A stretch of 64,000 bases of DNA from Thermoplasmata archaeon (lineage in GTDB: Archaea > Thermoplasmatota > Thermoplasmata > Lutacidiplasmatales > UBA184), in contig JAKIWV010000001.1 of the NCBI GenBank assembly GCA_022749815.1, forward strand, positions 248,001 through 312,000, written 5' to 3'. The position numbers were made by a program, and so were the translations under genes. Each line of letters starts with the position of its first letter. Position 1 is the first letter of the stretch. Below the pieces are notes generated by a model. It was not told the DNA's origin, made no database searches, and saw nothing but the letters and a program-made list of their open reading frames with translations. Positions 3,924 through 32,153 of the stretch are shown in pieces.

Positions 3924-4756
3924 GCGATTCCCCTCGAACACTAGGTTTTTCCCCCCCCGAGGGAGAGTCGCGGCCGGATGGATTCTTGACGCGCGAGTTC
4001 GATGTCGGCCTCGAGCTCTTCGCCCGCAAAGAGTACCCCCGGGCGGCGAAGGTGTTCGAGGAGGTTCTCCTCGGCGACCCCCATCACGCCCGCGCCTGGT
4101 CCTACCTGGGGATCTCCCTCGCCCACATCGGACGCGCGCCCGAAGCCGAGCAGGCCCTGCGACGCGCCCTCGATATCGCCCCGACGAACGGGGAATGCTG
4201 GTTCCATCTCGGCATCGCCCAGAGCCTCGAAGCGGATTGGCCCCGGGCCGCCGAAACGCTGCGCCACGCCGCGGCGCTGATGCCCGGCGACCTCTCCGCC
4301 TGGCACCGCCTCGGAGTTGCGTTGGCGGAGGCCGGCGATCTGGAGGGAAGCGCCGCCGCCTTCGAACGGGCCCTCATTCTCTCGCGGGACATCGCGGGCG
4401 CTGGACGCCCCGTCCGGGCCTCGCGCGGACACGGAGACGACCATCTGTCGGAGCCCGGAGAGAGGGAAGGGCCGAAGGAGGCCGAGAGCTGGCTCTCGCT
4501 GGCCTTGTCGCTCTTGACCCTCGGTGAAGTGGAAGAGGCCGTCGCCGCCTACGAACGTGGCTACGAAGTGGATCCGGAGAGGGCGCGCCACTCGATGTTC
4601 CGCCCGATGCTCCAGCTCCTGACCTCGACCGCGGGCGGGCCCGAAGAGGAACTTCCCGGCGCCCGGACTTTTGAAATTTCGCCCGACTCACCGATCCGAC
4701 CCCCCCAACGGCCCACTCCCACGGGCCCGGACGACCCCCTCACAGGCGTCGGCTGA
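3920..4756 (+). CDS. Tetratricopeptide-repeat protein
   Basis: A 278-residue protein with at least three consecutive TPR units at about residues 25-130 (for example ARAWSYLGISLAHIGRAPEA and ECWFHLGIAQSLEADWPRAA). A fourth helical repeat lies near residue 200 (WLSLALSLLTLGEVEEAVAA). TPRs are protein-interaction scaffolds, and nothing here identifies a partner. There is no signal peptide or membrane segment. The C-terminal ~45 residues are Pro-rich and probably disordered. The start is taken as the TTG at 3920, the first initiation codon in frame. The gene is convergent with trpS across a 30-base gap that contains a perfect palindrome. Confidence 0.75.
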   Translation: MSDSPRTLGFSPPEGESRPDGFLTREFDVGLELFARKEYPRAAKVFEEVLLGDPHHARAWSYLGISLAHIGRAPEAEQALRRALDIAPTNGECWFHLGIAQSLEADWPRAAETLRHAAALMPGDLSAWHRLGVALAEAGDLEGSAAAFERALILSRDIAGAGRPVRASRGHGDDHLSEPGEREGPKEAESWLSLALSLLTLGEVEEAVAAYERGYEVDPERARHSMFRPMLQLLTSTAGGPEEELPGARTFEISPDSPIRPPQRPTPTGPDDPLTGVG

Positions 4757-6305: not shown

Positions 6306-6540
6306 TGGAGTAGAGTGCTAGGAACGCCCTCGCATAAGATGTATCCGTTCCTCGGGGTGGCCCCGGAAAAAACTTGGGCAGCTCTGCCCCGAACCCCGGA
6401 ACGGTAGAGGAGTTCAAGTAGGGGGACTCGGGCTATTTTGGGACACGCAAGCGCCGGACGGCCGCCAAGACCCGATTCGGGCCGCGCTCCTCGCCGTACT
6501 CCGCCAGCTAAACCAGACCGAGGCGAACCACGAGGGTCGA

Positions 6541-6548
6541 GAGGAGGA
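6541..6548 (+). promoter_or_regulatory. Strong Shine-Dalgarno sequence before the small wHTH-like gene
   Basis: GAGGAGGA, with a full GGAGG core, ends about 7 bases before the ATG at 6556. It supports that ATG as the start even though the open frame continues upstream without an ATG, GTG or TTG. Confidence 0.5.
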
Positions 6549-6555
6549 GCAGGCG

Positions 6556-6789
6556 ATGGAGCTCGCCGAACTCGAGCAGCGCCTCCAGGAGTTCTGGGCC
6601 GTCAAACAAGGCCGGGTCAAGATCCCCCTCGCCGTCGGTCTGCTCCTGCGGAACAAGATGGTCGAGACACGGTCCGACCCGAAGGCGTCGTGGCAGCGCC
6701 AGCGCAGCGTGACGCAACGGTATCAGATCACGACCGAAGGGAAGCGGTTCCTCACCGAGGCTGTGGCCTCCGATTCGCGCATCCAGTGA
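6556..6789 (+). CDS. Small winged-helix-like protein
   Basis: A 77-residue protein. Its second half, with IPLAVGLLLRNKMVETRSD followed by TQRYQITTEGKRFLTEAV, resembles a winged helix-turn-helix: recognition helix, wing, then the 'YxITxEGKRFL' ending common in MarR/PadR-like folds. The start is the ATG behind a strong SD. The same frame stays open and protein-like upstream to about 6421 (GRQDPIRAALLAVLRQLNQ), so the true protein may be longer with an unusual start. It lies 67 bases before the rps15 operon. The target is unknown. Confidence 0.6.
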   Translation: MELAELEQRLQEFWAVKQGRVKIPLAVGLLLRNKMVETRSDPKASWQRQRSVTQRYQITTEGKRFLTEAVASDSRIQ

Positions 6790-6827
6790 GCTCTCCGGAC
6801 CCTCGCCGACAGCGCCTCGCGCCAAGC

Positions 6828-6837
6828 TCTAATATGC
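6828..6837 (+). promoter_or_regulatory. TATA-like element of the rps15 operon
   Basis: TCTAATATGC centred about 25 bases upstream of the GTG start of rps15 at 6857. The spacing predicts transcription starting at the start codon, i.e. a leaderless message. Confidence 0.55.
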
Positions 6838-6856
6838 ATCCCTTTCTCGGGCGAAT

Positions 6857-7312
6857 GTGTCGCGCATTCACTCGGGCCGGAAGGGTCGTTCCGGCTCCGA
6901 CCGGCCGTATCCGGCGCTCCCTCCCACGTGGCCCGTTCCGGAGCCGGCCGAGGTGGCCGACCAGGCCCTCCAGCTATCCAAAGGAGGGCTGTCCGCCGCC
7001 CAGGTGGGGGCCGTTCTACGCGACACGTATGGGGTCCCCTCCGTCCGACTGGCGACCGGAGAGCGACTCGTCCCGCTCCTCGCGAAGCGCGGGGTGCGCC
7101 CCGAGTTGCCCGAAGACCTGGCCGCCCTGTTGCGCCGGGTCGTGACGCTCCAGCGCCACCTCAAGGAACATCCCAAGGACCGCTCGAACCACCGGGGCCT
7201 TGCGCTCATCGAGTCTCGCATCCGGCGACTTGCCCGGTATTACCGGGACCGGAAGCTGCTGCCCGAGACCTGGCGGTACACGGCCTCTGAGGCCGTCCTC
7301 CAGGTGGAGTGA
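6857..7312 (+). CDS. rps15: Small-subunit ribosomal protein uS15
   Basis: Binds the central domain of 16S rRNA in the 30S subunit. At 151 aa it has the archaeal/eukaryal size. The N-terminus MSRIHSGRKGRSGSDRP is the classic archaeal S15 start, and the C-terminal half contains the S15 core (LQRHLKEHPKDRSNHRGLAL, then ESRIRRLARYYRD). The GTG start fits that N-terminus and a leaderless promoter. Its TGA shares one base with the ATG of the downstream DHH gene, so the two are translationally coupled. Confidence 0.96.
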   Translation: MSRIHSGRKGRSGSDRPYPALPPTWPVPEPAEVADQALQLSKGGLSAAQVGAVLRDTYGVPSVRLATGERLVPLLAKRGVRPELPEDLAALLRRVVTLQRHLKEHPKDRSNHRGLALIESRIRRLARYYRDRKLLPETWRYTASEAVLQVE

Positions 7313-8706
7313 TGCCCTCGGGACCCGAGGGCTTCGTAGCCCACCCGCTCTACGCCCAGGAGTTCACCCGGGCGCGCGAGCTCCTGCTCGCCACTCCCGG
7401 ACGCTGGCGCGTTATCTACCACTACGACGGCGACGGCATCGGGGCGGCTTCGGCGTTGGTCCGCGGCCTCCGGCGACTGGGATACGGGTTCCAGACCACC
7501 GCCCTGAAGGGCGTCGAACGGGCCCGGATCGAGGAACTGCTCCACGCAACTCCTGGGCCGGTGATCGTGACGGACACGGGCGCGAGCTGGCCCGAGTCGT
7601 ACGCCGCGCATCGCTTCCCGGTGATCGTCCTCGACCACCACACGTATCCCGGCTCTCCCACGCCGCCCTCTTGCCCACCCCACGTCGCGTTCGTCAACCC
7701 GCTCGACTGGGGCGTCGATGGCATGACCGAGATGTGCGCCTCTACGCTCTCCTGGCTGTTCACGATTTTCCTCGACCCCAAGAACTGGGACAACGTTCCC
7801 TGGGCGCTCTCGGGGGCGATCCACGACCGGCAGCACGTGGGCGGCTTCCGGGGTCTCAACGGCACCCTGGTTCGGGAAGCGCTCCATCGACAGCTGTTGA
7901 CCGAGCGCACAGAGCTCGTTCTTCGCGGAGCTACGGTGGCGGCCGGCCTCGAGGCTAGCATCGACCCGTATTTCGTCGGTCTATCGGGGCGCCCGGAGGC
8001 CGCGAGCGAATTCGTCGGTCGGCTCGGCATCTCGGCCGACCGGACCCTGGACGCGTTGGAGACGGGCGACCGGGACCGATTGACTGCGGCGCTGGCCGGC
8101 CAATTGGCCCAGCAAGGCGCCCGTCCCGAGTTCTGCGAACGGGTGATGACCGAGCGTTGGAACTTCCCCGGAGAAACCGTGGACGCGGAGGAGCTCTCCC
8201 AGCTCCAGAACGCCGCGGGCCGGGCCGGACAGCCGGGGGTCGGCGTGGCGCTCGCCTTCGGCGATCCGGACGCGGGCCACAAATGCCGCGACTTCTGGGA
8301 GAGCTGGCAGAGCGGCGTCCTCCGGGGCCTGCGGCGGCTGGAGGACGAACGCCCCTGCCAGCTCGCGTCGATCCAATGGTTCCAGAGCCCCGAGCTGACC
8401 CTCGCCGGCACCCAGGCGGGCCTGGCGATCACCTACTTCCTCGACCCGTATCGGCCCGTCTTCGTGCTTTCGCGCAGTGACGGCTCGACGAAGGTGTCGT
8501 CCCGCGGGACGACCTGGTTGGTCGGTCGCGGGCTGGACCTCGCAACGGCCTGCCGGGAGGCGGCGGCCAAGGTGGGCGGCGAGGGCGGCGGCCATCGCGT
8601 CGCCAGCGGGGCGACGATTCCCGTGGATCGAGAGGAAGAATTCCTTCAAGAGGCCGATCGAATCATCGCTACGCAACTCCCCGCGCCGGAGGAGAACCAT
8701 CGATGA
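7312..8706 (+). CDS. DHH-family phosphoesterase, archaeal RecJ/GAN (Cdc45-like) type
   Basis: Predicted single-strand nuclease of the RecJ/GAN group, which in archaea associates with GINS and the replicative helicase. It is 464 aa. The DHH motifs are visible: [12 protein letters not shown] near residue 39 (motif I), [10 protein letters not shown] near 82 (motif II) and [11 protein letters not shown] near 100 (the DHH itself). A DHHA1-like C-terminal part includes [12 protein letters not shown]. The ATG overlaps the rps15 stop, and its own stop overlaps the gyrA start as ATGA. The association of rps15 with the RecJ/GAN gene is widespread in archaea and supports the replication assignment. Confidence 0.88.
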
Positions 8707-11315
8707 GCGCCCCGGCCCACAAGCTCCCTCCCGCCGATCCGTCGACGGTCGTCGACCACATCACGGACCACTCGGTGGAGAAGGAGCTGCACAAGTCGTA
8801 CCTCGACTACGCGATGAGCGTCATCGTCGGTCGCGCCCTCCCGGACGGCCGGGACGGGCTCAAGCCGGTGCACCGTCGCATCCTCTGGTCGATGTGGGAC
8901 GGCGGCGTCACGCACGACAAGGCCTACCGGAAGTCCGCGCGCATGGTGGGCGACGTCCTCGGCAAGTACCATCCCCACGGCGACATGGCGGTCTACGACG
9001 CCCTGGTCCGGATGGCCCAGACCTTCTCGCTCCGCTACCTGCTCATCGACGGACAGGGAAACTTCGGCTCCGTCGACGGAGACATGCCGGCGGCGATGCG
9101 GTACACCGAGGCCCGGCTCTCCGCCCTCGCCGAGGAGCTCCTGCTCGACATCGAGAAGGAGACCGTCGAGTGGGGGGACAACTTCGACGGTTCGCTCCAG
9201 GAACCCCTGGTCCTCCCCTCCAAGATCCCGAATCTCCTCGTCAACGGGTCGGCCGGGATCGCCGTCGGCATGGCGACCAACATGCCGCCCCACAACCTCT
9301 CCGAGATCACCGACGCGCTCCTTCTCCTCCTCCGCGACCCCGACGCCTCGCTCGACGACCTGTTGCGCGTCGTGCCCGGACCCGATTTTCCGACCGGCGG
9401 CCTGCTCGCCGCCAACTCCGGTATCCGGGACGCCTACGCGACCGGTCGGGGGCTCCTGCGCACCCGGGGCAAAGCCGAGGTCCGCGAGCGCGACGGCCGG
9501 GACGAGATCGTCATCACCGAGATCCCGTACGAGGTGAACAAATCCCAGCTGCTCCAGTTGATGGCCGACCTCGTGCGCGACAAGCGCATCGACGGCGTCT
9601 CCGACCTGCGCGACGAGTCCGACCGGAACGGCATGTCGATCGTCGTGGAGCTGAAGCGCGACGTGCCGGCCGAGATCGTCCTCAACCGGATCTACGAGCA
9701 CACCCCGCTCGAGACGACCTTTGGCGTGATCAATCTCTGCCTGGTCGGTGGCCGCCCGAAGGTCCTGGGACTCAAGGAGCTGCTCGAGATCCACCTCGCC
9801 CACCGGCGCAATATCCTCAGCCGGCGGACCACGTTCGACCTCTCCAAGACCCTCGAACGGCTCCACCTGCTCGAGGGATTCCTTATCGCAATCGACCACA
9901 TCGACGAGGTGATACGGATCATCCGTCGGTCGAAGGACGCCGAGGCCGCCTCGACCTCCCTCATGGGAAAATTCCTGCTCTCCACGGAGCAGGCCAAGGC
10001 GATCCTCGACATGCGCCTCGCCCGGCTCACGCAGCTCGAGCGCGAGTCCGTCGAAAAAGAGACGAAGGAGAAGGAGGCGCTCGTCACCCGCCTGAAGGCG
10101 ATCCTCGCCTCCCCCCACGAGCTCGATGGGCTCATCGTCGAGGAACTCCACGACATCAAGCGCCGGTTCGGGGACGCGCGCCGCACGACGATCGTTCCCG
10201 GCTTCACCGAACGCACGCTCGAGGACCTGATCCCCGACACCGACGTCGTCGTCCTCGTCACCCATGACGGCTACATCAAGCGCCTGCCGCTCGACAGCTA
10301 CCGGCGACAGCGGCGGGGTGGGAAGGGCCTCATCCAGATGGAGACCAAGGAGGAGGACTTCGTCACGCGCACGTTCGTGGGCCGCACGCACGACAACATC
10401 CTGTTCTTCACGACGCTCGGCCGCGTCTACCGGCTCAAAACGTACGAGATGCCCGAGGGCAGCCGACATTCCAAGGGGAAGGCGATCATCAACCTCCTGC
10501 CGAAGCTCAAGGACGGCGAGAAGATCCAGACCCTGCTCCTGGCCCGGGACCTCGGGCAGACCGGCGACCTCGTCTTCGCGACGCGCGCCGGCCTCGTGAA
10601 GCGGACCGGCCTCGAGCAGTTCCAGAACATCCGGACCAACGGCATCCAGGCCGTCCTCCTCGAGGAGACCGACGCCCTCGTGGACGTGCAGCTGATCGCC
10701 GACGAGACCGTGGAGATCCTCCTGGCCACCCGCTCGGGCCAGCTCGTCCGGTTCCCCGTGGGCGAGATCCGTCGGATGGGCCGGGCCACCTACGGGGTCA
10801 TCGGCGCCCGGCTCTCCGGCGAAACGGACGACCAGGTCGTCTCGATGACCGTCGCGAGCCCGGCGTTCCCGTACCTGCTCTCCCTCACGTCCACGGGCTT
10901 CGGAAAGCGGAGCGAGACGGAGGAGTACCGCCGCACGCACCGGGGGGCCAAGGGCGTCCGGACGATCCGCACCGGGGGCCGGAACGGCCAGGTCGTTGCC
11001 GTCCTTCCGACGAGGGACGATCAGGAGCTGCTCGTCACCACCCAACGCGGCGTGACGATCCGCGCGCCGATCGAAGGGATCCGTGCTCAGGGCCGGAACA
11101 CCCTCGGGGTCCGGGTCATTCGGCTCGAGGAGGGGGACACCGTGCGGGACGCGGTCGCCCTCGTGCCGCCCGGGGAGACCGCCGACGCCCCCGCGCCGGG
11201 CGGCTCGCCACCGGATGCCGGCTCCCCCCGAACGGCGAATGCGACGACAACCCCCGAGGGCCCCGACGAGGACGGAGCGGAGGACGGCGACGAAGCGACG
11301 ACGGCCCCGGGGTAA
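8703..11315 (+). CDS. gyrA: DNA gyrase subunit A
   Basis: The breakage-reunion subunit of gyrase, which supercoils DNA together with GyrB. It is 870 aa. The N-terminal domain carries [20 protein letters not shown] and GKYHPHGD. The catalytic tyrosine is Y134 in [10 protein letters not shown]. The C-terminal beta-pinwheel begins with the GyrA box QRRGGKG near residue 535, which identifies gyrase rather than topoisomerase IV. The last ~40 residues are an acidic, low-complexity tail. The gene starts inside the stop of the DHH gene (ATGA). gyrB is not adjacent and not in the window. Archaeal gyrase was acquired from bacteria; here it is fully embedded in an archaeal rps15 operon. Confidence 0.97.
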
Positions 11316-24345: not shown

Positions 24346-24380
24346 GATGAAACCTCGAACGAGTACGAGCGGTCCGGTCG

Positions 24381-24390
24381 CATCTTAAGT
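24381..24390 (-). promoter_or_regulatory. TATA-like element of the polB2 operon
   Basis: ACTTAAGATG on the minus strand, about 38 bases upstream of the GTG at 24345, the first gene of the three-gene operon. The predicted leader is about 10 bases. Confidence 0.45.
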
Positions 24391-24630
24391 CGCTGCATGG
24401 GGTACCTGAAACGGTCCGAGACACCGGCGTTTCAACCGGCCCGCTGACGTCACACGCTCCTCGCGATCCCGTCATGACTCGCACGGCCCGGAAAGTATGA
24501 TGCGCCTGTGGGCACACCGGCTTGTGAGCTGAAAGATGAGGGTCCAACTGCGGGTGGGGCGTTCCAGCCGATGAACTGGATGGAAGTCGGAGACCCACCT
24601 CTCGAGATAGCGACGTGGCGGGCCGCGTGA

Positions 24631-24969
24631 ATGAAGAAATTCATCCCGGTTGGAAGCGTTCTTGGTGGGTTCCTGAGCGGCGGTTTCGCCGGATTCGCCG
24701 CCGTCAACGTTTGGCCTGGCGCGTCATCGTGGCCGTTCACGGTCAAAATGGAACTGTTCCTGGGGATCGCTATTCCCGTCGGCGTTGCGGAGTTCTTCAT
24801 CAACAGATGTATAATCCCGCTACTGGCCAGGGCTAGTCTCCTCCGCGTTCGGCGGGTGGCGATATTCGACGGGAAGCTCTACCTCGACCAGTTTTCGGGG
24901 GCTTCCACGGAGCGCCCCTTGAAGCAGGTGAGCGTGTCCAAGGAAGCAATTGCCGGTGGTTGGTACTAG
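24631..24969 (+). CDS. Small membrane protein, unknown function
   Basis: 112 aa, not recognised. It begins MKKFIPVGSVLGGFLSGGFA, a Gly-rich hydrophobic helix, followed by a second one (LFLGIAIPVGVAEFFINRCI), giving two probable membrane helices. A ~35-residue soluble tail contains VRRVAIFDGKLYLDQFSG. Codon use is less GC-biased than in core genes. It stands alone between the polB2 operon promoter and a pseudogene region. Confidence 0.65.
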   Translation: MKKFIPVGSVLGGFLSGGFAGFAAVNVWPGASSWPFTVKMELFLGIAIPVGVAEFFINRCIIPLLARASLLRVRRVAIFDGKLYLDQFSGASTERPLKQVSVSKEAIAGGWY

Positions 24970-25287
24970 GTCTCGCTCCCGGCGGGACGAGCCGCCCTGA
25001 CCTTCTATGTCCCGCCCTTGGTGGCGTCGACGATTACCAGCGCGATGGGTCGATAGTTGGAAGCTTGAACTTGGCTCTCGAACTTAGCTCGAGCTCCCTG
25101 GGCCCCCCTTGATCGAGCGATCCCATGGTGCAGTCGGAAGCGCACGTTGCCGATCTTCGAGACACCGAATCGATTTACGTGGCGCAACGGGCACCCACCG
25201 ACGCAATCCTAGCTTTCCGCTTCCCCGTCGCCCCACAAACCCGAATGTCGAGGAAGGGTTGATGACAGCTCGGCGATAGTCCGTGCA
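24970..25287. other. 318-base region without a convincing gene
   Basis: No complete gene is seen. A minus-strand frame (25005-25187) contains a protein-like stretch (SNYRPIALVIVDATKGG) but has no partner domain, and could be a gene remnant. The region borders a pseudogene and may be decaying sequence. No strong hairpin or promoter was found. Confidence 0.4.
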
Positions 25288-25680
25288 AGGTTCCAGAAGG
25301 TCGACCGCGTGTGCCTCCCGGTTCCGGATCTGGACGAGGGGCCCCAATTCTACGGGGACAAGCTGGGTCACGAGCTCCTGTCGCGACGTGGGATGGTCGC
25401 GGCGGGACTTTGCAGAGCGAAATCCGATACCTAGCTCGATCTGTTCACGGAACCTCCGGGCGACATTGGCGGAGCCCCCGAGGTTGACCTGCTCGTGACT
25501 GCCACCGATCCGGCCGCAACGAGGTTCCAGGAGCTCGGCGGGCGGCCGATTGAGGGACCGTTCGACATTCCCGTCGGTCGATGCGCCGTCGTCGTCGACC
25601 TGTTCGGCAACGAACTCGTCCTCCTCGATCTGTCGAAGGGCCTGCTGAGGACGGACGCCGATCGAAACGTGATCGAGTGA
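25288..25680 (+). pseudogene. VOC/glyoxalase-like pseudogene, paralogue of the gene at 29364
   Basis: Reading from AGG at 25288 gives a frame matching the intact VOC gene at 29364 almost throughout (RFQKVDRVCLPVPDLDEGPQ against MFQKIDCVRLRVPDLDEGLR). The ATG has become AGG, and an in-frame TAG lies at 25432-25434 where the intact copy has GAG. The last 42 residues differ at only four positions. The two disabling changes with strong residual similarity indicate recent decay after duplication. A truncated C-terminal product from GTG at 25495 is possible but unlikely to fold as a VOC domain. Confidence 0.8.
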
Positions 25681-25776
25681 TCTCGATTCTTGCTCCCCCG
25701 CAGAGCCCACCCATGAGGACGGTTCTATCAACACCCGTTCAGTTTCGGCGCTCTTGCCCGGGCGGGTGGCCCTGAG

Positions 25777-26760
25777 TTACCGCGAATCGGGTCGAGCCAA
25801 CACCTTCTCGGTTTGAATCCCGGCGTATACTTTTCGGAAACCCAACCGCTCGTTCAGCGCCCACATCGGGACGTTCGAGGAGTCGTTGTGGGTACGGATC
25901 CAGCGGTATCCATGTCGCTTCCCGTAGTCGATGATCCGGAGCTTCAACGCTAGCGCCAGCCCCTGGCGTCGGTACTCCCGTTGCGTGCAGGTGAACATCT
26001 GCTCCAGCGTGTCCGGCGCGGCGGACTCTCGCTGCGCGTAACTGAAGGCGACGTACTGACCTCTATCCTTCGCGATGAACCACGCCTCGGGAAGTGCGTT
26101 GGGCCCTCCGAAGTTGAAGGTCCGGTAGTTGGCAAATGACGGAGGGACGTACGGCTCCAATCGGGGCTCGTCGACGGACGCCTCGGCGTCCAGTCGATAC
26201 AGCTGTTCCAACACCCGGGGATCGTGCACCCCCTCGCGAGCGAGCGTCGAGATCTCGATCCGACTCGTGTTTGGCTCTCGGCTCCGCGTCGGTAGGCGCT
26301 CCAGGTCGACCGACGCCAGGTCCAGGAGGGAGGTCCAATTCCGGCGTCGCTCCACAAACCCGCGTTTCACTAGGAAAGCGCGCCCGGCCCGTTCCTCCTC
26401 CCGGACGAACGCTCGAAGAAGTTGGGCGCCCTTCTCCTCTGCGCGGGCAAGAAGAGTTTCGTAGAGACGGGCACCGATTCCTTGCCGTTGCACTTCGGGG
26501 TGGACCGCGACGTCCAGCCAGAAATTCCCTCGGGCCGCTTCGGGCGCTTGACCAACGCCGCCTACGGCGACAGCCCGTGTGAGTTGTCGTGCGTCCACAT
26601 TGTAGAGCTCGTGATAGTTCGATGGCCCGAAGGCCTCCTCTTGATGGCGTAAAGTTTCGGCCGAGACCGGTTGATCTGGGCGAATCGCCTGCTCAATCGC
26701 CGCCCACGACCCGTAGTCGCCTTCGGTGAGCGGGCGCACCGAGAAGCGCGATTCATCCAT
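25777..26760 (-). CDS. Tandem GNAT acetyltransferase, copy 1 of duplicated pair
   Basis: 327 aa with two GNAT domains. Domain 1 has LDVAVHPEVQRQGIGARLYE; domain 2 has EYRRQGLALALKLRIIDYGK, then RTHNDSSNVPMWALNERLGF, the arrangement known from mycothiol-synthase-like double GNATs. It is clearly paralogous to the gene at 29857-30834 (both share PVSAETLRH, KRGFVERRRNWTS or near, EISTLAREGV and PNALPEAWFIAK). It is convergent with the VOC pseudogene, as the paralogue is with the intact VOC gene. A CTTTTATC TATA-like element lies about 33 bases upstream. Substrate unknown. Confidence 0.86.
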   Translation of the reverse strand: MDESRFSVRPLTEGDYGSWAAIEQAIRPDQPVSAETLRHQEEAFGPSNYHELYNVDARQLTRAVAVGGVGQAPEAARGNFWLDVAVHPEVQRQGIGARLYETLLARAEEKGAQLLRAFVREEERAGRAFLVKRGFVERRRNWTSLLDLASVDLERLPTRSREPNTSRIEISTLAREGVHDPRVLEQLYRLDAEASVDEPRLEPYVPPSFANYRTFNFGGPNALPEAWFIAKDRGQYVAFSYAQRESAAPDTLEQMFTCTQREYRRQGLALALKLRIIDYGKRHGYRWIRTHNDSSNVPMWALNERLGFRKVYAGIQTEKVLARPDSR

Positions 26761-26790
26761 TACGAGCCCCGCAATCGAGTCCGGAACATC

Positions 26791-26798
26791 GATAAAAG
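26791..26798. promoter_or_regulatory. TATA-like element between divergent GNAT and CopZ-like genes
   Basis: GATAAAAG; read on the minus strand it is CTTTTATC, about 33 bases before the GNAT ATG at 26760, a good promoter spacing. For the plus-strand gene at 26841 it lies 45 bases upstream, leaving a ~20-base leader. Confidence 0.45.
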
Positions 26799-26840
26799 CG
26801 GTCGGGCCCTCCCGAGTCTCTTCCCGAAAGTCCCATCTCT

Positions 26841-27659
26841 ATGGCTCTGATTCCGCTCGTGATGGCCACCGCAACCAGCGGGCGAGACCCAGCGGTGCGT
26901 ACCGTCGCGGGACTCGAGTTTCCCCGCGCTGAGCAACTGGAAGCGGGTGTTGAACCGGCGAAAGCCTGTCCCGTTTGCGGTCACCAGGGGAGGAGGGTGA
27001 TCGCCCTGACGGTCACTGCCCACCTACGTCCGGAGTATTGGAACGCGCTCGGCGACGGCTTCTGGTTCTGCTGGACTCGTGAGTGTCCCATTTTCTATTA
27101 CGACAACGCCCGTCGGGTCTACGTCTCCAAGGACCTTCTCGAAGTGAGGAGCCGGTTCGGTCTGAAAGAGAGCGAGGTGCCCCGGCCGATCTGCTACTGT
27201 CTCGGCGTCAACGCGGAGCGGATCTTCGACGAGGTCGAGAACAAGGGGTGCTGCGATTCTCTCGAGGACGTGGAACAGTATACTCGGGCCGGCACCGGGA
27301 AGTGGTGTGTCACTACAAACCCCTCTGGCGTCTGCTGCAGGGCCTACCTCAAGGAGTTGGTCGCGGAATCCCTGGCTCGTTCCTCGGTCGAGTCCCGGCC
27401 GCCGGTCGAGGAAGTGGCCGAAAGGCTGAGTGCCGACGAGGCTCCGCGGAGCCCCGTCGGGCTGAAGGTCGGAGGGATGGACTGCGAGGCGTGCGGTGTG
27501 GCCGTCACTGCGCTCATCGAGCATGCCGGGGGGCGCAACGTTCGAGTCTGGGTCCCGGATGGACGAGCCACCTTGGAGGCGGCAGCAGGGTTGAACCTCC
27601 CGCAGCTTCTGCGTGAGTTGACCGATGCGGGCTACTCCTCAGAGGTTACGTCCGACTAA
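26841..27659 (+). CDS. copZ: CopZ-like copper chaperone: Zn/[2Fe-2S] domain plus HMA domain
   Basis: 272 aa resembling Archaeoglobus CopZ. The N-terminal region has CPVC (43-46), C77 and C82 (CWTREC), CYC (118-120), CC (137-138), C156 and CC (165-166), which would hold a zinc and a [2Fe-2S] cluster. The C-terminal ~65 residues are a heavy-metal-associated domain with GGMDCEACGVAV (Cys 215/218), the GMxCxxC copper site. CopZ passes Cu(I) to CopA-type ATPases; none is in this window. It lies between the two copies of the duplicated VOC-GNAT pair. Confidence 0.85.
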   Translation: MALIPLVMATATSGRDPAVRTVAGLEFPRAEQLEAGVEPAKACPVCGHQGRRVIALTVTAHLRPEYWNALGDGFWFCWTRECPIFYYDNARRVYVSKDLLEVRSRFGLKESEVPRPICYCLGVNAERIFDEVENKGCCDSLEDVEQYTRAGTGKWCVTTNPSGVCCRAYLKELVAESLARSSVESRPPVEEVAERLSADEAPRSPVGLKVGGMDCEACGVAVTALIEHAGGRNVRVWVPDGRATLEAAAGLNLPQLLRELTDAGYSSEVTSD

Positions 27660-27772
27660 GATGCGGGATCAAATCCGGTCCTGGACAAACCCAACGAGGC
27701 GGAGCAACCTAGGCCCATGCTCAAAGAAGCGCATTTAGGCTCGGGGCACTCCCGCCGGACCACGGACAGAAG

Positions 27773-29338
27773 ATGTCGACCCTCCGACCTCCTCCACTCA
27801 CCGCTCCACGCGCGGCCCAGCGCGCCTTTCTAGACGAGATAGAACGTCGGGTCGAACCTCTCCTCCGAGGCCGGATGCTGGCCGACTGGCGGCTATACAC
27901 GGGACGTTCCACGGTGGGACCCCTGCAGTGGCAGTTGCGCCGACATCGGTTGCTTTCCGCGGAGGGCTTGGTCCAGTGGGCGGAGGAATGTCGCCGCAAC
28001 GAACCCGACCAGTCCTCCGCCCGGAGACTCGAACTCCTGCAGCGCTTGGCTACCGACGCCATCCTCGAAGAGCACCCTTCCGTCAGCCGGCCGAGAGCGG
28101 TCCTCCAGAGGAGGATCGCCCGGTTCCGACCGACTTGGAAAGGGAAGAGGGTCGACCGGTCGGTGGTCCGGAAGCAGCTTCGAACCAGCCCCGACCGGGA
28201 CCAACGTCGCGCCGCATGGTACTCTACCGAACCGCTGTATCGGAGCGTGGAGGAGCCGCTACGGAGATTGGTCCGAACCCGGAATGCCCGGGCCCGGGAA
28301 CTCGGATTCCGCTCCTATCCCGAGTATCGGCTGGGGTTCGAGGGATTCAACCTGTCGCGGCTGAAAGACCTCCTCGACGAGGTCACTCGACCCGTGCGCG
28401 CCGCGGCCGTCGAGAAACGCGCTGCCTTCGAGGACGAGACCGGATTGCGCGGCTGGTGCCCATGGGACGCGGGGTACGCCGACGAGCTCGCCGTACGATT
28501 GCCCGAGAGGGCTTTCGGGACCGCCTCTCTGCTGCGATCCGTTCTGGCTGGGGTGCGTCAGTGGGGATTCTCGGAGCGGCGGCTGCGATTCAACATCGAT
28601 CACCACGACGGAGCCTTCGGCGGTATCGCGATACCGGTGGACCCACCGCGGGACGTCCGCGTGGTGGTGGGCTCCGGAACGGGGTGGACCAACTACATGA
28701 TTCTCTTCCACGAGGTTGGTCATGCCGTACAGGACCGTTCAACCGCAGTCCATCCCCCGCTGCTGCGGTGGTACAGCTACCTCCCCGGCTTTCCCGGATT
28801 CCTCGAAGGGATCGGAACCCTGTTCGAAGAGATTCCCAAATCCCCCGAGTGGCTGGTCACCCGGCCCGGGATTGACCGCCGGCTAGCCGCTCGATTCGCG
28901 AGCATGAAACAACTGACCCAGCTCGCCGAGATGAGCTGGCTTCTCGCCTGGATCCGCGCCGAGCTCGAGCTCTATCGCAACCCCGAAGGCGATATCGGGG
29001 AGGTTCGGGGCCGGTGGCTCCGACGCTTGGGCGGGTACGACGCATTCGATCCGCCCTCGTTCGCGGACTTCTTCTATGTGGAAGCTCCCGTGTATTCTCA
29101 GAACTACCTGTTCGCCATGCTGTTCGCCCGGCAGCTACTTTCGACGCTGCGGAAGGAACTGGGGGGCCCCCTCTGGCCGAACCGTCGATTCGGCCCCTGG
29201 CTCACGAGAAACTGGTTCCGGTCCAGCGGGGAGTTCGACTGGGTCCCCCGATTGGAGGCTCAGACGGGTCGGCCGTTCGGCGCGGAGGCTTTCAATCGCT
29301 CGGCCCGGGCCACCCTGGTCGAGGCCCGGAAGGGCTGA
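27773..29338 (+). CDS. M3-like (oligoendopeptidase-type) zinc metallopeptidase
   Basis: 521 aa. The zinc motif is H313-EVGH in MILFHEVGHAVQDRS, followed ~25 residues later by FLEGIGTLFEEI, which supplies the third-ligand glutamate region of M3/M2 peptidases. The helical N-terminal ~270 residues, with RELGFRSYPEYRLGFEGFN, and the C-terminal DFFYVEAPVYSQNYLFAML fit the M3 fold. There is no signal peptide, so it is probably cytoplasmic and processes oligopeptides. The VOC gene starts 25 bases downstream and may be co-transcribed. Confidence 0.8.
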   Translation: MSTLRPPPLTAPRAAQRAFLDEIERRVEPLLRGRMLADWRLYTGRSTVGPLQWQLRRHRLLSAEGLVQWAEECRRNEPDQSSARRLELLQRLATDAILEEHPSVSRPRAVLQRRIARFRPTWKGKRVDRSVVRKQLRTSPDRDQRRAAWYSTEPLYRSVEEPLRRLVRTRNARARELGFRSYPEYRLGFEGFNLSRLKDLLDEVTRPVRAAAVEKRAAFEDETGLRGWCPWDAGYADELAVRLPERAFGTASLLRSVLAGVRQWGFSERRLRFNIDHHDGAFGGIAIPVDPPRDVRVVVGSGTGWTNYMILFHEVGHAVQDRSTAVHPPLLRWYSYLPGFPGFLEGIGTLFEEIPKSPEWLVTRPGIDRRLAARFASMKQLTQLAEMSWLLAWIRAELELYRNPEGDIGEVRGRWLRRLGGYDAFDPPSFADFFYVEAPVYSQNYLFAMLFARQLLSTLRKELGGPLWPNRRFGPWLTRNWFRSSGEFDWVPRLEAQTGRPFGAEAFNRSARATLVEARKG

Positions 29339-29363
29339 TGATAGGTCGACCATACTAGGTGCC

Positions 29364-29756
29364 ATGTTCCAAAAGATCGATTGCGTGCGGCTCCGAGTTC
29401 CGGATCTGGACGAAGGCCTGCGGTTCTACTGCGATCGGCTGGGCCACCAGCTCGCTTGGCGGCGGGGCACCTCGGAGGCGGGACTTGTCATGCCGCAGTC
29501 CGACACCGAGCTGGTTCTGTTCGCGGAGCCCCCGGGTTCTACCGATGCAGCCCCCGAGGTTGACCTTCTAGTGACCGCGACCGATCAGGCCGCGACGAAT
29601 TTCAAGGAACTCGGGGGGCGAGTGATCGAAGGACCGTTCGACATTCCCGTGGGCCGATGCGCCGTCGTCCTCGACCCCTTTGGCAACAAACTCGTCCTCC
29701 TCGATCTGTCGAAAGGGCTGTTGAAGACCGACGCCGACCGAAACGTGATCGAGTGA
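29364..29756 (+). CDS. VOC (glyoxalase/bleomycin-resistance) superfamily protein, intact copy
   Basis: 130 aa, one VOC unit. It begins MFQKIDCVRLRVPDLDEGLR, then FYCDRLGHQLAWR, the first beta-alpha-beta module, and ends with IEGPFDIPVGRCAVVLDPFG followed by NKLVLLDLSKG, the classic second module. Metal ligands of glyoxalase I are not clearly conserved, so the reaction is unknown. The GNAT gene at 29857 is convergent, 100 bases away. A decayed paralogue lies at 25288-25680. Confidence 0.85.
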   Translation: MFQKIDCVRLRVPDLDEGLRFYCDRLGHQLAWRRGTSEAGLVMPQSDTELVLFAEPPGSTDAAPEVDLLVTATDQAATNFKELGGRVIEGPFDIPVGRCAVVLDPFGNKLVLLDLSKGLLKTDADRNVIE

Positions 29757-29856
29757 CCGAGGCACTCTCATCGCCGAGGAACGGGTCGAGTGCGACGGGA
29801 CGATCGACCTCAGCTCCAGCCCCCAGGATCACCGTTCTCGGCGCATCCCGTCGACA

Positions 29857-30834
29857 CTAGTCCTCGCGAGAGAGCCCCTTCTCGGTTTGGATGATGGTGG
29901 AGACGCGGTGGAATCCCAATCGCTCGTTCAGCGCCCACATCGGGGCATTCAAGGAGTCGTTGTGCGTGCGAATCCACCGATAGCGGTTCCGTTTCCCGTA
30001 CTCGATGACGCGGAGCTTGAGCGCCAACGCAAGCCCCCGGCGTCGGTAGTCCCGTTGCGTGCAGGTGTACGCCTGCTCGAGCGTATCCGGCGCGGCGGCC
30101 TCTCGCTGGGCAAAGCTCATCGCGACGTAACGACCCCGGTGTTTCGCAATGAACCACGCCTCCGGAAGCGCATTCGGGCCTTCCATGTAGAAGCGTCGGA
30201 ATGCGGCGAGCGGGATGGGGACATAGGGATACATACGGGGCACATCGACCGACGTCTCGCAGTCCAGCCGATAGAGCTGTTCGGCGACTTCCGCGTCGGT
30301 GACTCCCTCGCGAGCCAGAGTCGAGATCTCGATCCCGGCCGCGGCCAGATCCGGGCTCAGGGACAAAAGACGATCCGTGGCGGCGGCCTCCAAGTCCAGG
30401 ACGGATGTCCAGTTCCGGCGTCGTTCCACAAACCCCCGTCGCAGCAGAAACGCCTGCCCGGCGAGTTCGTCCTCGAGCACAGCCGACCATAGACTCACCC
30501 CGTCGTGCTCCCTCGCTGAGGCCAGCAGGGTCTCGTACAATCCCCCACCTATACCCCGCCCTTGAAAGCCGGGTAGGACCAAGGCAAAGACCCAAAACTT
30601 CCCCCGCTCCGCCGCCGGGTCTTGCTCGAGGCCGCCGATGGCGACCACCTGACCGGTAGTTCGCACTTCCACGACGTATCTCTGGTGGAAGGGGCCGGGT
30701 CCGAACGCCTCCTCTTCGTGCCGAAGTGTTTCGGCTGACACCGGATAATCGGGACGAACTTGCTTCAGAATGGTGGCGAACGACTCGTAATCGTCGGGCA
30801 TGAAACGTCGTGCAGAAAAGAGCGAATCGTCCAT
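29857..30834 (-). CDS. Tandem GNAT acetyltransferase, copy 2 of duplicated pair
   Basis: 325 aa, two GNAT domains. Domain 1: VFALVLPGFQGRGIGGGLYE. Domain 2: DYRRRGLALALKLRVIEYGK then RTHNDSLNAPMWALNERLGF. Long stretches match the paralogue at 25777-26760. The ATG at 30834 has CTTAATATTG 27-36 bases upstream. It is convergent with the intact VOC gene; the pair VOC-><-GNAT is the duplicated unit. Confidence 0.86.
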   Translation of the reverse strand: MDDSLFSARRFMPDDYESFATILKQVRPDYPVSAETLRHEEEAFGPGPFHQRYVVEVRTTGQVVAIGGLEQDPAAERGKFWVFALVLPGFQGRGIGGGLYETLLASAREHDGVSLWSAVLEDELAGQAFLLRRGFVERRRNWTSVLDLEAAATDRLLSLSPDLAAAGIEISTLAREGVTDAEVAEQLYRLDCETSVDVPRMYPYVPIPLAAFRRFYMEGPNALPEAWFIAKHRGRYVAMSFAQREAAAPDTLEQAYTCTQRDYRRRGLALALKLRVIEYGKRNRYRWIRTHNDSLNAPMWALNERLGFHRVSTIIQTEKGLSRED

Positions 30835-30860
30835 CTTGGGCTCTTCATTCGGACCCTGGA

Positions 30861-30870
30861 CAATATTAAG
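30861..30870 (-). promoter_or_regulatory. TATA-like element for GNAT copy 2
   Basis: CTTAATATTG on the minus strand, centred about 31 bases before the ATG at 30834, fitting a leaderless or very short-leader transcript. Confidence 0.5.
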
Positions 30871-30998
30871 GAGGGGTCGGCACCCATCCGCCGATCCACT
30901 TCAACTGGTTCTAGATTGGACTTGGCCGTCGTGGTGGTTCGACCCCCGAATGCACCCCGCGGGTCTGGGCTATCATCGTCTACACCCTCCTACTCAGC

Positions 30999-31589
30999 AT
31001 GACGGGCTTCCTCTTGTCCCCCGGAATCACCCCGGCCCTTGTCGGCGCGTGCTCGGTGGAAATCCCCCTGGCTTTCGGCCTGGCGTACGTCTTCTTTCGA
31101 GGTCGGGGCCTCGAGGTTGCGATCGGTCTGAACACCGTAGGTCTCGCCGCGATCAAGATCTACACTGACTATGCTGACCTGTATGACCTGCTCCTTGCTG
31201 TGGTCATTCTCGCCGCTGGCCTCGTGTGGCTCGTGCTCAGCTTCTCGTGGCACCGTTCTCCTGCCCGGTTGATTCGCGGAGGATCCATGGCCCTCGCGAC
31301 CCTCGTGGTCCCCCTGGGGGCCATCAAGGTCATCTCAGACTTCTACGACCCGTTCGACATCTTCCTCGCCTGCCTGGGCATCCTCGCGGGCGCGTTCCTC
31401 CTACGGTGGTCGCTGTCGGGGCCGTCGTGGCTCCGCTACAGCCCTCGCCGGACCGGCTTGATCATTGGAGGGTCGGTCGTCGCGATGCTGGCACTCCTCC
31501 TCGCCGAATGGGCGCGAGTGTTGCCAACATGGATGCTGCTGGTGTTCGTGCTCCCGTTTCCGATCCTGACGGTCGTCTACTCGAGATGA
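30999..31589 (+). CDS. Polytopic membrane protein, unknown function
   Basis: 196 aa with about six hydrophobic segments: ALVGACSVEIPLAFGLAYVF, LLLAVVILAAGLVWLVLSF, MALATLVVPLGAIKVIS, IFLACLGILAGAFLLRW, LIIGGSVVAMLALLLAEW and MLLVFVLPFPILTVV. Two halves share the pattern 'KI/KV-x-S/T-D-[FY]-x-D-x-[FY]-D' (IKIYTDYADLYDLLLA, IKVISDFYDPFDIFLA), suggesting an internal duplication of a three-helix unit with conserved acidic residues. I do not recognise the family. Confidence 0.7.
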   Translation: MTGFLLSPGITPALVGACSVEIPLAFGLAYVFFRGRGLEVAIGLNTVGLAAIKIYTDYADLYDLLLAVVILAAGLVWLVLSFSWHRSPARLIRGGSMALATLVVPLGAIKVISDFYDPFDIFLACLGILAGAFLLRWSLSGPSWLRYSPRRTGLIIGGSVVAMLALLLAEWARVLPTWMLLVFVLPFPILTVVYSR

Positions 31590-31723
31590 TTCCCGTTCTC
31601 GTCGATGCCGGGCTCGACCCGGGGGCCGGATCTGCGAGAGGTATGTTGACCGCGGTCCCGGTCTGCCACAGTGGGCGCTCCTCACGCCCCGACATCGCCC
31701 GCGCCCTGCCGTCTCTGAGGTCG

Positions 31724-32011
31724 TTAGGTGGCTCGAGCCGCCTGGCGGAGTAGCGACCAGTTGATACCGGAGAAAATTGCTCCGACCAGGATCAGGGTCG
31801 ACCCAATCCCGCCCATGAGTGCATCCAGGAGGCTGGCCGACGCGTACTGTGCATACTATCCCGAGGAGTTGGCCCAGATGGAGAAAGCGACGAACGCGAT
31901 CGTCACCGCGATGCCGGCAAAGAGGAGGGCGAGGCTGACCTGGAAATCGCGACGGGTCCGGAGGACGCTGAGGCGGATTTCTCCCTCGATTGCCTGACTC
32001 GGCGCGCCCAT
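31724..32011 (-). pseudogene. Two-helix membrane protein gene interrupted by one in-frame TAG
   Basis: From ATG at 32011 the frame reads MGAPSQAIEGEIRLSVLRTR, a basic start, then a membrane helix (VSLALLFAGIAVTIAFVAF). It meets TAG at 31856-31858 and continues in the same frame through a second helix (GGIGSTLILVGAIFSGINW) to TAA at 31724-31726. Apart from the TAG the frame is intact over 96 codons. It could be a recent nonsense mutation, a sequencing error, or readthrough. TAG is an ordinary stop for many genes here, so a general amber recoding is unlikely. A perfect inverted repeat precedes the ATG. Confidence 0.5.
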
Positions 32012-32017
32012 CGACCG

Positions 32018-32040
32018 GTTCCCGGAACACAACCGGGAAC
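32018..32040 (-). promoter_or_regulatory. Perfect 8-bp inverted repeat just upstream of the interrupted membrane gene
   Basis: GTTCCCGG at 32018-32025 and CCGGGAAC at 32033-32040, exact complements separated by seven bases, starting seven bases before the ATG at 32011. It could be an operator or leader hairpin. Confidence 0.4.
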
Positions 32041-32153
32041 GAAAACCGTTTCGCTAACAGGGGTCCGTCATCGTGTCCCGCCGTTGGTGATCGGGGCGCA
32101 TTCAGATATCGCGCACCGCACGCGCGCGATTCCGCTCTTCGCTTGCGCGGGAG

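Follow-up and report, generated by a model that had tools for sequence, protein, structure and literature searches.

In a soil-type archaeon of the class Thermoplasmata, assigned to the Candidatus Lutacidiplasmatales, two gene pairs, each consisting of a VOC-type gene and a convergent gene for a tandem-repeat GNAT, lie on either side of a CopZ-like gene and an M3-like peptidase gene (Table 1). The coordinates, orientation, and collinearity of the two pairs, first read from the sequence alone, are borne out by families of ungapped repeats and by a blastn search of the 64-kb window (the whole stretch of DNA that was analysed) against itself. The two genes reported to sit between the pairs are likewise confirmed by their Pfam and NCBIfam domains and by the HEVGH motif of the peptidase.

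Table 1. Features of the duplicated VOC–GNAT region (positions in the window)
Feature	Positions	Strand	Basis and remarks
Variable slot, polB-linked Rad51-like gene to DUF72 gene	24346–32153	.	7808 bp in the window
Left block copy (VOC1 pseudogene and GNAT1)	25252–26760	.	blastn 70% over 1446 bp; alignment to the GNAT start
VOC1 pseudogene	25288–25680	+	Start codon absent; in-frame TAG at 25432; long branch; 9/50 invariant residues altered
Open frame of 61 aa, GTG start	25495–25680	+	ORF list; spans the C-terminal half of VOC1, which has fewer differences
GNAT1, intact tandem-repeat GNAT, 327 aa	25777–26760	-	ORF list, Pfam; dN/dS against GNAT2; motif in both domains
CopZ-like gene	26841–27659	+	Pfam zf_CopZ and BFD-type [2Fe-2S]; CopZ-like C-terminus
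M3-like peptidase gene	27773–29338	+	HEVGH at residue 313
Right block copy (VOC2 and GNAT2)	29328–30834	.	Begins just inside the 3' end of the M3-like gene
VOC2, intact, 130 aa	29364–29756	+	Starts 25 bp past the M3-like gene; possible shared operon
GNAT2, intact tandem-repeat GNAT, 325 aa	29857–30834	-	ORF list, Pfam; model me4235adbb9ee; closest solved folds tandem GNATs

The nucleotide self-comparison aligns positions 25252–26684 of the left block with 29328–30758 of the right block at 70% identity over 1446 bp (listed E-value 0.0), the alignment reaching as far as the GNAT start, and the block is the single repeat returned for the window at E ≤ 1e-6. The ungapped repeats comprise 25252–25551 and 29328–29627 (73%), 25793–26092 and 29867–30166 (79%), and 26228–26400 and 30302–30474 (73%), with a spacing of 4074–4076 between the copies. 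A recount of the VOC C-termini agrees exactly with the 38 of 42 identical residues given earlier, and the GNAT copies, described as alike over long stretches, share 62% identity over 325 residues. Chance likeness of the VOC copies is excluded because no other ungapped match to VOC2 within the window exceeds 39%. In shuffling tests, neither the convergent intergenic stretches of the two blocks (133 of 500 shuffles scored as high) nor the stretches upstream of GNAT1 and GNAT2 (136 of 500) resemble each other above chance. The block duplication is real and represents one event within the lineage, an ordinary local duplication.

Among the single-copy genes between the blocks, the CopZ-like protein matches the NCBIfam model of the CopZ metallochaperone in its C-terminal part, at a score below the cut-off. 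Two more M3-like paralogues, with 40–41% identity to the M3-like protein of the window, are encoded on contig C4 of the window's own genome (G000) at 109050–110531 and 179136–180653 (L037 and L039). VOC2 belongs to the VOC/glyoxalase superfamily (PF00903, 50 bits against a gathering cut-off of 20.6) and scores below every NCBIfam equivalog cut-off. The family profile matches the nearest solved chain of the VOC/glyoxalase fold, Rv0577 (3oxh), at 4e-12, although VOC2 is a single short chain of 130 aa and the 3oxh chain has 282 aa; the single-sequence structure model of VOC2 has a mean pLDDT of 36.4. Because VOC2 starts 25 bp after the M3-like gene, the CopZ-like gene, the M3-like gene, and VOC2 may share one transcript, and VOC2 is perhaps a separate accessory protein expressed with the two upstream genes.

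Decay of VOC1 and retention of both GNATs

The VOC frame at 25288, which the sequence-only reading took for an intact gene, is a pseudogene. A start codon is lacking at 25288, and the frame upstream, as far as an in-frame TAG at 25210, offers no ATG, GTG, or TTG in phase; a further in-frame TAG, at 25432, occupies codon 49 of 131. Of 50 columns invariant across four intact relatives, nine are changed in VOC1; VOC2 is one of these four relatives and has no changes by construction. In a tree of 11 VOC proteins, VOC1 and VOC2 are sisters (support 100/100), with branch lengths since their split of 0.35 to VOC1 versus 0 to VOC2. VOC1 thus combines a lost start, an in-frame stop, and relaxed constraint relative to the intact copy, as expected of a pseudogene. 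A base-calling error in the assembly could yield one of the lesions but not the long branch. With a dN of 0.16 versus a dS of 0.66 over the whole gene, constraint probably acted on VOC1 for some time before the gene broke.

A pyrrolysine at the TAG codon is not plausible because the genome contains no PylS match above the family cut-off; its only PylS-like match scores 25.7 bits versus a cut-off of 178.15. Among 14 control genomes, 13 had a match at the listing threshold and just one exceeded the cut-off; with the genome 93.2% complete, the absence of PylS is not absolute. Most VOC relatives in other genomes are without internal stops. The copy in G051 (C136:13109–13477, L073) contains an internal TAG and an internal TAA; decay of the VOC may have occurred more than once.

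The uneven preservation of VOC1 might instead indicate a gene that was shortened rather than killed, its C-terminal half (one VOC half-module, 25495–25680) still being expressed. That half forms an open frame of 61 aa with a GTG start, differs from VOC2 at 8 of 61 residues as opposed to 26 of 69 before it, and has lost fewer invariant residues when the protein is split at residue 65 (2 of 28 versus 7 of 22; Fisher p 0.03). However, the same half-versus-half contrast of VOC1 against six pairs of intact relatives gives Fisher p values from 0.004 to 0.24, and the synonymous divergence is likewise lower in the C-terminal half, which fits gene conversion or chance. On these comparisons, expression of a half-module remains decidedly unlikely.

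Both GNAT copies, by contrast with VOC1, are intact. PF00583 matches two stretches of each copy, which gives two GNAT domains per chain. The acetyl-CoA motif A, searched in the form [QR]xxGx[GA], is found in the N- and C-domains of both GNAT1 and GNAT2; across 28 members of the GNAT family, it is present in 26 N-domains and 25 C-domains. The copies differ by a dN of 0.285 and a dS of 1.03 and are both kept under purifying selection. Divergence is uneven along the chain, with a dN of 0.33–0.45 in three segments of residues 1–165 versus 0.11 in residues 221–275.

An AlphaFold2 model of GNAT2 built from three sequences (mean pLDDT 79.5) has the tandem GNAT fold across residues 1–325. It aligns with 7q3a (Z 24.2, rmsd 3.7, 300 residues), 3tt2 (Z 23.4, rmsd 4.6, 293 residues), 2wpw (Z 22.9, rmsd 3.9, 291 residues), and the mycothiol synthase 2c27 (Z 22.1, rmsd 3.2, 273 residues). 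The solved tandem GNATs, which are ORF14 of the clavulanic acid cluster (2wpw/2wpx), MAB_4324 (7q3a), and a GNAT of S. thermophilus (3tt2), have two domains in a chain of ~325 aa, as have the proteins of the window. The closest relative by profile is 2wpw (E 3e-17) and the closest by fold are the tandem GNATs (Z 22.8–24.2), but identity to the solved proteins is only 19–23%, and the present GNATs are archaeal. The two-domain fold of the GNAT2 model is also common to the mycothiol synthase MshD (1ozp, 2c27; TIGR03448; Z 21.7–22.1). An assignment as mycothiol synthase was rejected for both copies: GNAT1 matches TIGR03448 weakly (23.5 bits versus a cut-off of 163.1), and GNAT2 does not match it. 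Each GNAT is most likely a small-molecule N-acetyltransferase that transfers the acetyl group of acetyl-CoA to an amine, and the pair would now most likely cover two substrates or two expression settings.

A variable slot and the origin of the duplication

The region lies in a slot that is flanked on one side by PolB and its Rad51-like neighbor (Rad51 match below the Pfam cut-off) and on the other by the DUF72 gene and a ferredoxin-like gene, the latter label being read from the translation. A scan of named genomes provided 79 PolB loci, mostly from Thermoplasmata MAGs and one from Candidatus Lutacidiplasma silvani, and slot length was measured in the 47 loci with both slot markers. The interval has a median of 309 bp, exceeds 1 kb in 16 and 2 kb in 8 of these 47 relatives, and ranges from 140 bp (the distance between the markers in L118) to 7.8 kb.

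The contents of the slot include transporters, GNATs, glyoxalase-fold proteins, and transposase-type genes (L115, L117, L118, L121, L138, L152, L158, and L161). Two congeners (L115 and L117) carry an ABC transporter and DUF998, ornithine cyclodeaminase-type, and glyoxalase-fold proteins, and L115 additionally a PEP mutase-type protein; in L115, the ABC and cyclodeaminase-type labels were assigned from the likeness of its frames to those scanned in L117. In L161, the slot contains genes for an MFS transporter and a cupin alongside a related GNAT and a further VOC. In a tblastn search of the window proteins against the 79 PolB loci, the GNAT was found only in L161, a VOC2 match only in L185 (31%), and an M3 match only in L172, with no CopZ-like match in any of them. 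Because contents and length of the slot differ among relatives, the block of the window is accessory cargo within a slot of variable content.

A DDE_3/HTH_32 transposase lies inside the slot of L138 (6186–7292) and an HTH_32/HTH_23 protein inside that of L121 (7504–8469). L146 (5134–11402) carries a second PolB gene that faces the opposite way from the first, and both have a Rad51-like neighbor; this may reflect a duplication or an assembly artefact. The 64-kb window contains no tRNA that could have served as an insertion site, and viral carriage of the GNAT was rejected because a search of viral_contigs gave no match to it.

The differing cargo of the slot, together with the lack of this GNAT in congeners, would be compatible with two separate acquisitions of similar VOC–GNAT pairs from other organisms. 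Against this stands the full-support joining of the window copies in both trees. The GNAT tree comprised 28 family members, namely the two window copies, 25 of the 29 loci L041–L069, and one further copy (L111); left out were L056 (same scores as L055), L058 (internal stop), L064 (first residues missing), L069 (broken match), and further matches of the two-copy profile without an assigned locus. GNAT1 and GNAT2 are sisters in this tree (100/99), and next to them are proteins from another genus of the same family, G099 (47% identity to GNAT2) and G089 (43%). The GNAT copies are 62% alike versus 47% for the best relative aligned, and in neither tree is a copy nearer to the genes of other species than to its partner. 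The duplication proposed by the sequence-only reading is thereby upheld, and separate acquisition is hardly credible.

The two copies become homologous ~75 bp ahead of the VOC start, in a stretch that takes in the final codons and stop of the right-hand M3-like gene (score 42, against a maximum of 29 in 500 shuffles). This reach into the end of the gene suggests that the right copy, beside the intact M3-like gene, was the source. The direction of copying is not firm, because the part of the overlap that lies in M3 coding sequence is weak by itself (equalled in 3 of 500 shuffles). A search for M3 remnants further left of VOC1 (24970–25211) yielded nothing above chance (224 of 500 shuffles as high). 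At 0.66, the dS of the VOC pair is lower than that of the GNAT pair (1.03), a gap that a single event would not be expected to leave unless gene conversion or codon bias had intervened; noise is a further possible cause.

It is very probable that an accessory VOC–GNAT block was duplicated locally in the variable slot and that VOC1 then decayed, with the GNATs diverging as N-acetyltransferases and VOC2 being separate. The block from the 3' end of the M3-like gene through the VOC to the convergent GNAT was copied once, within a slot where accessory genes come and go, and the right copy, which adjoins the intact M3-like gene, is probably the nearer of the two to the source. VOC1 subsequently lost its start, acquired a stop, and decayed, and GNAT1 and GNAT2 remained intact while diverging, more in the N-terminal than in the C-terminal domain.

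Linkage of VOC and GNAT in other genomes

With GNAT2 alone as the query, only its own genome was matched among 41 genomes, and none of the 40 others, which include five congeners. A profile of both copies matched 45 of 103 genomes of the family at E ≤ 0.001, some of them merely by weak partial GNAT matches, and the strong matches outside the own genome (E below 1e-30) were all in one other genus. Among 400 genomes of the class, a 28-row GNAT profile matched 44 (E ≤ 1e-20) and the VOC profile 13 (E ≤ 1e-15). Both families are present in four of them (G000, G056, G090, and G101), on different contigs in the latter three and on the same contig only in G000.

Duplication of the convergent pair had been taken as a sign that the two products work together. 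If the pair were a functional module of two parts (detoxifying one compound, for example), duplicated as a unit since its products cooperate, both genes should be found in the duplicated block with their orientation kept, as they are, and the presence of a related GNAT with a VOC of another subfamily in the same slot of L161 provides a weak hint in the same direction. There (6489–8776), the tandem GNAT and the Glyoxalase_6 VOC are 0.84 kb apart, separated by another reading frame, and co-directional rather than convergent. However, VOC1 is dead while GNAT1 is kept under purifying selection, and adjacent genes copied in a single event of 1.5 kb require no functional link.

The pairing is also not conserved. 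Linked pairs were not found elsewhere: VOC and GNAT families share a contig in just one of 400 class genomes, the window's own. No GNAT of this family lies near any of eight VOC relatives (L100–L107, flanks up to ~10 kb), no VOC of this kind near any of seven GNAT relatives with flanks (L108–L114), and none at 29 GNAT loci surveyed with flanks of ~1.5 kb or less. Fragmentation of the genomes surveyed limits the linkage counts; in G002 and G051, the contig stops only 0.2–0.4 kb downstream of the VOC. A full-text literature search returned no title on a VOC–GNAT pair among the matches listed, and the main text of PMC9287336 has no match for glyoxalase or GNAT. With one of the two VOC copies dead and the linkage confined to a single one of the genomes surveyed, a joint function is unsupported, and a cooperating module is quite improbable.

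A broader scenario would see the locus as a snapshot of partner loss, with the GTG-started VOC1 of 61 aa still made and possibly pairing with VOC2, GNAT1 and GNAT2 splitting substrates, and the polB–DUF72 slot acting as a standing exchange site among soil Thermoplasmata for small-molecule-modifying enzymes; this combination is very doubtful. Local duplication with subsequent loss of VOC1 follows the known pattern of gene duplication with nonfunctionalisation of one copy, VOC1 being broken and VOC2 unchanged. The sole unusual point relative to ordinary nonfunctionalisation is that the co-duplicated neighbor, the GNAT, was retained.

Co-duplicated neighbors are no evidence of cooperating products once one of the copies has decayed, and a tempting but unsupported functional inference from the co-duplication of VOC and GNAT is thus removed. 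The conserved frame of the polB-linked gene and the DUF72 gene around a variable slot in this archaeal order could help to trace how uncultured soil archaea acquire and lose genes.
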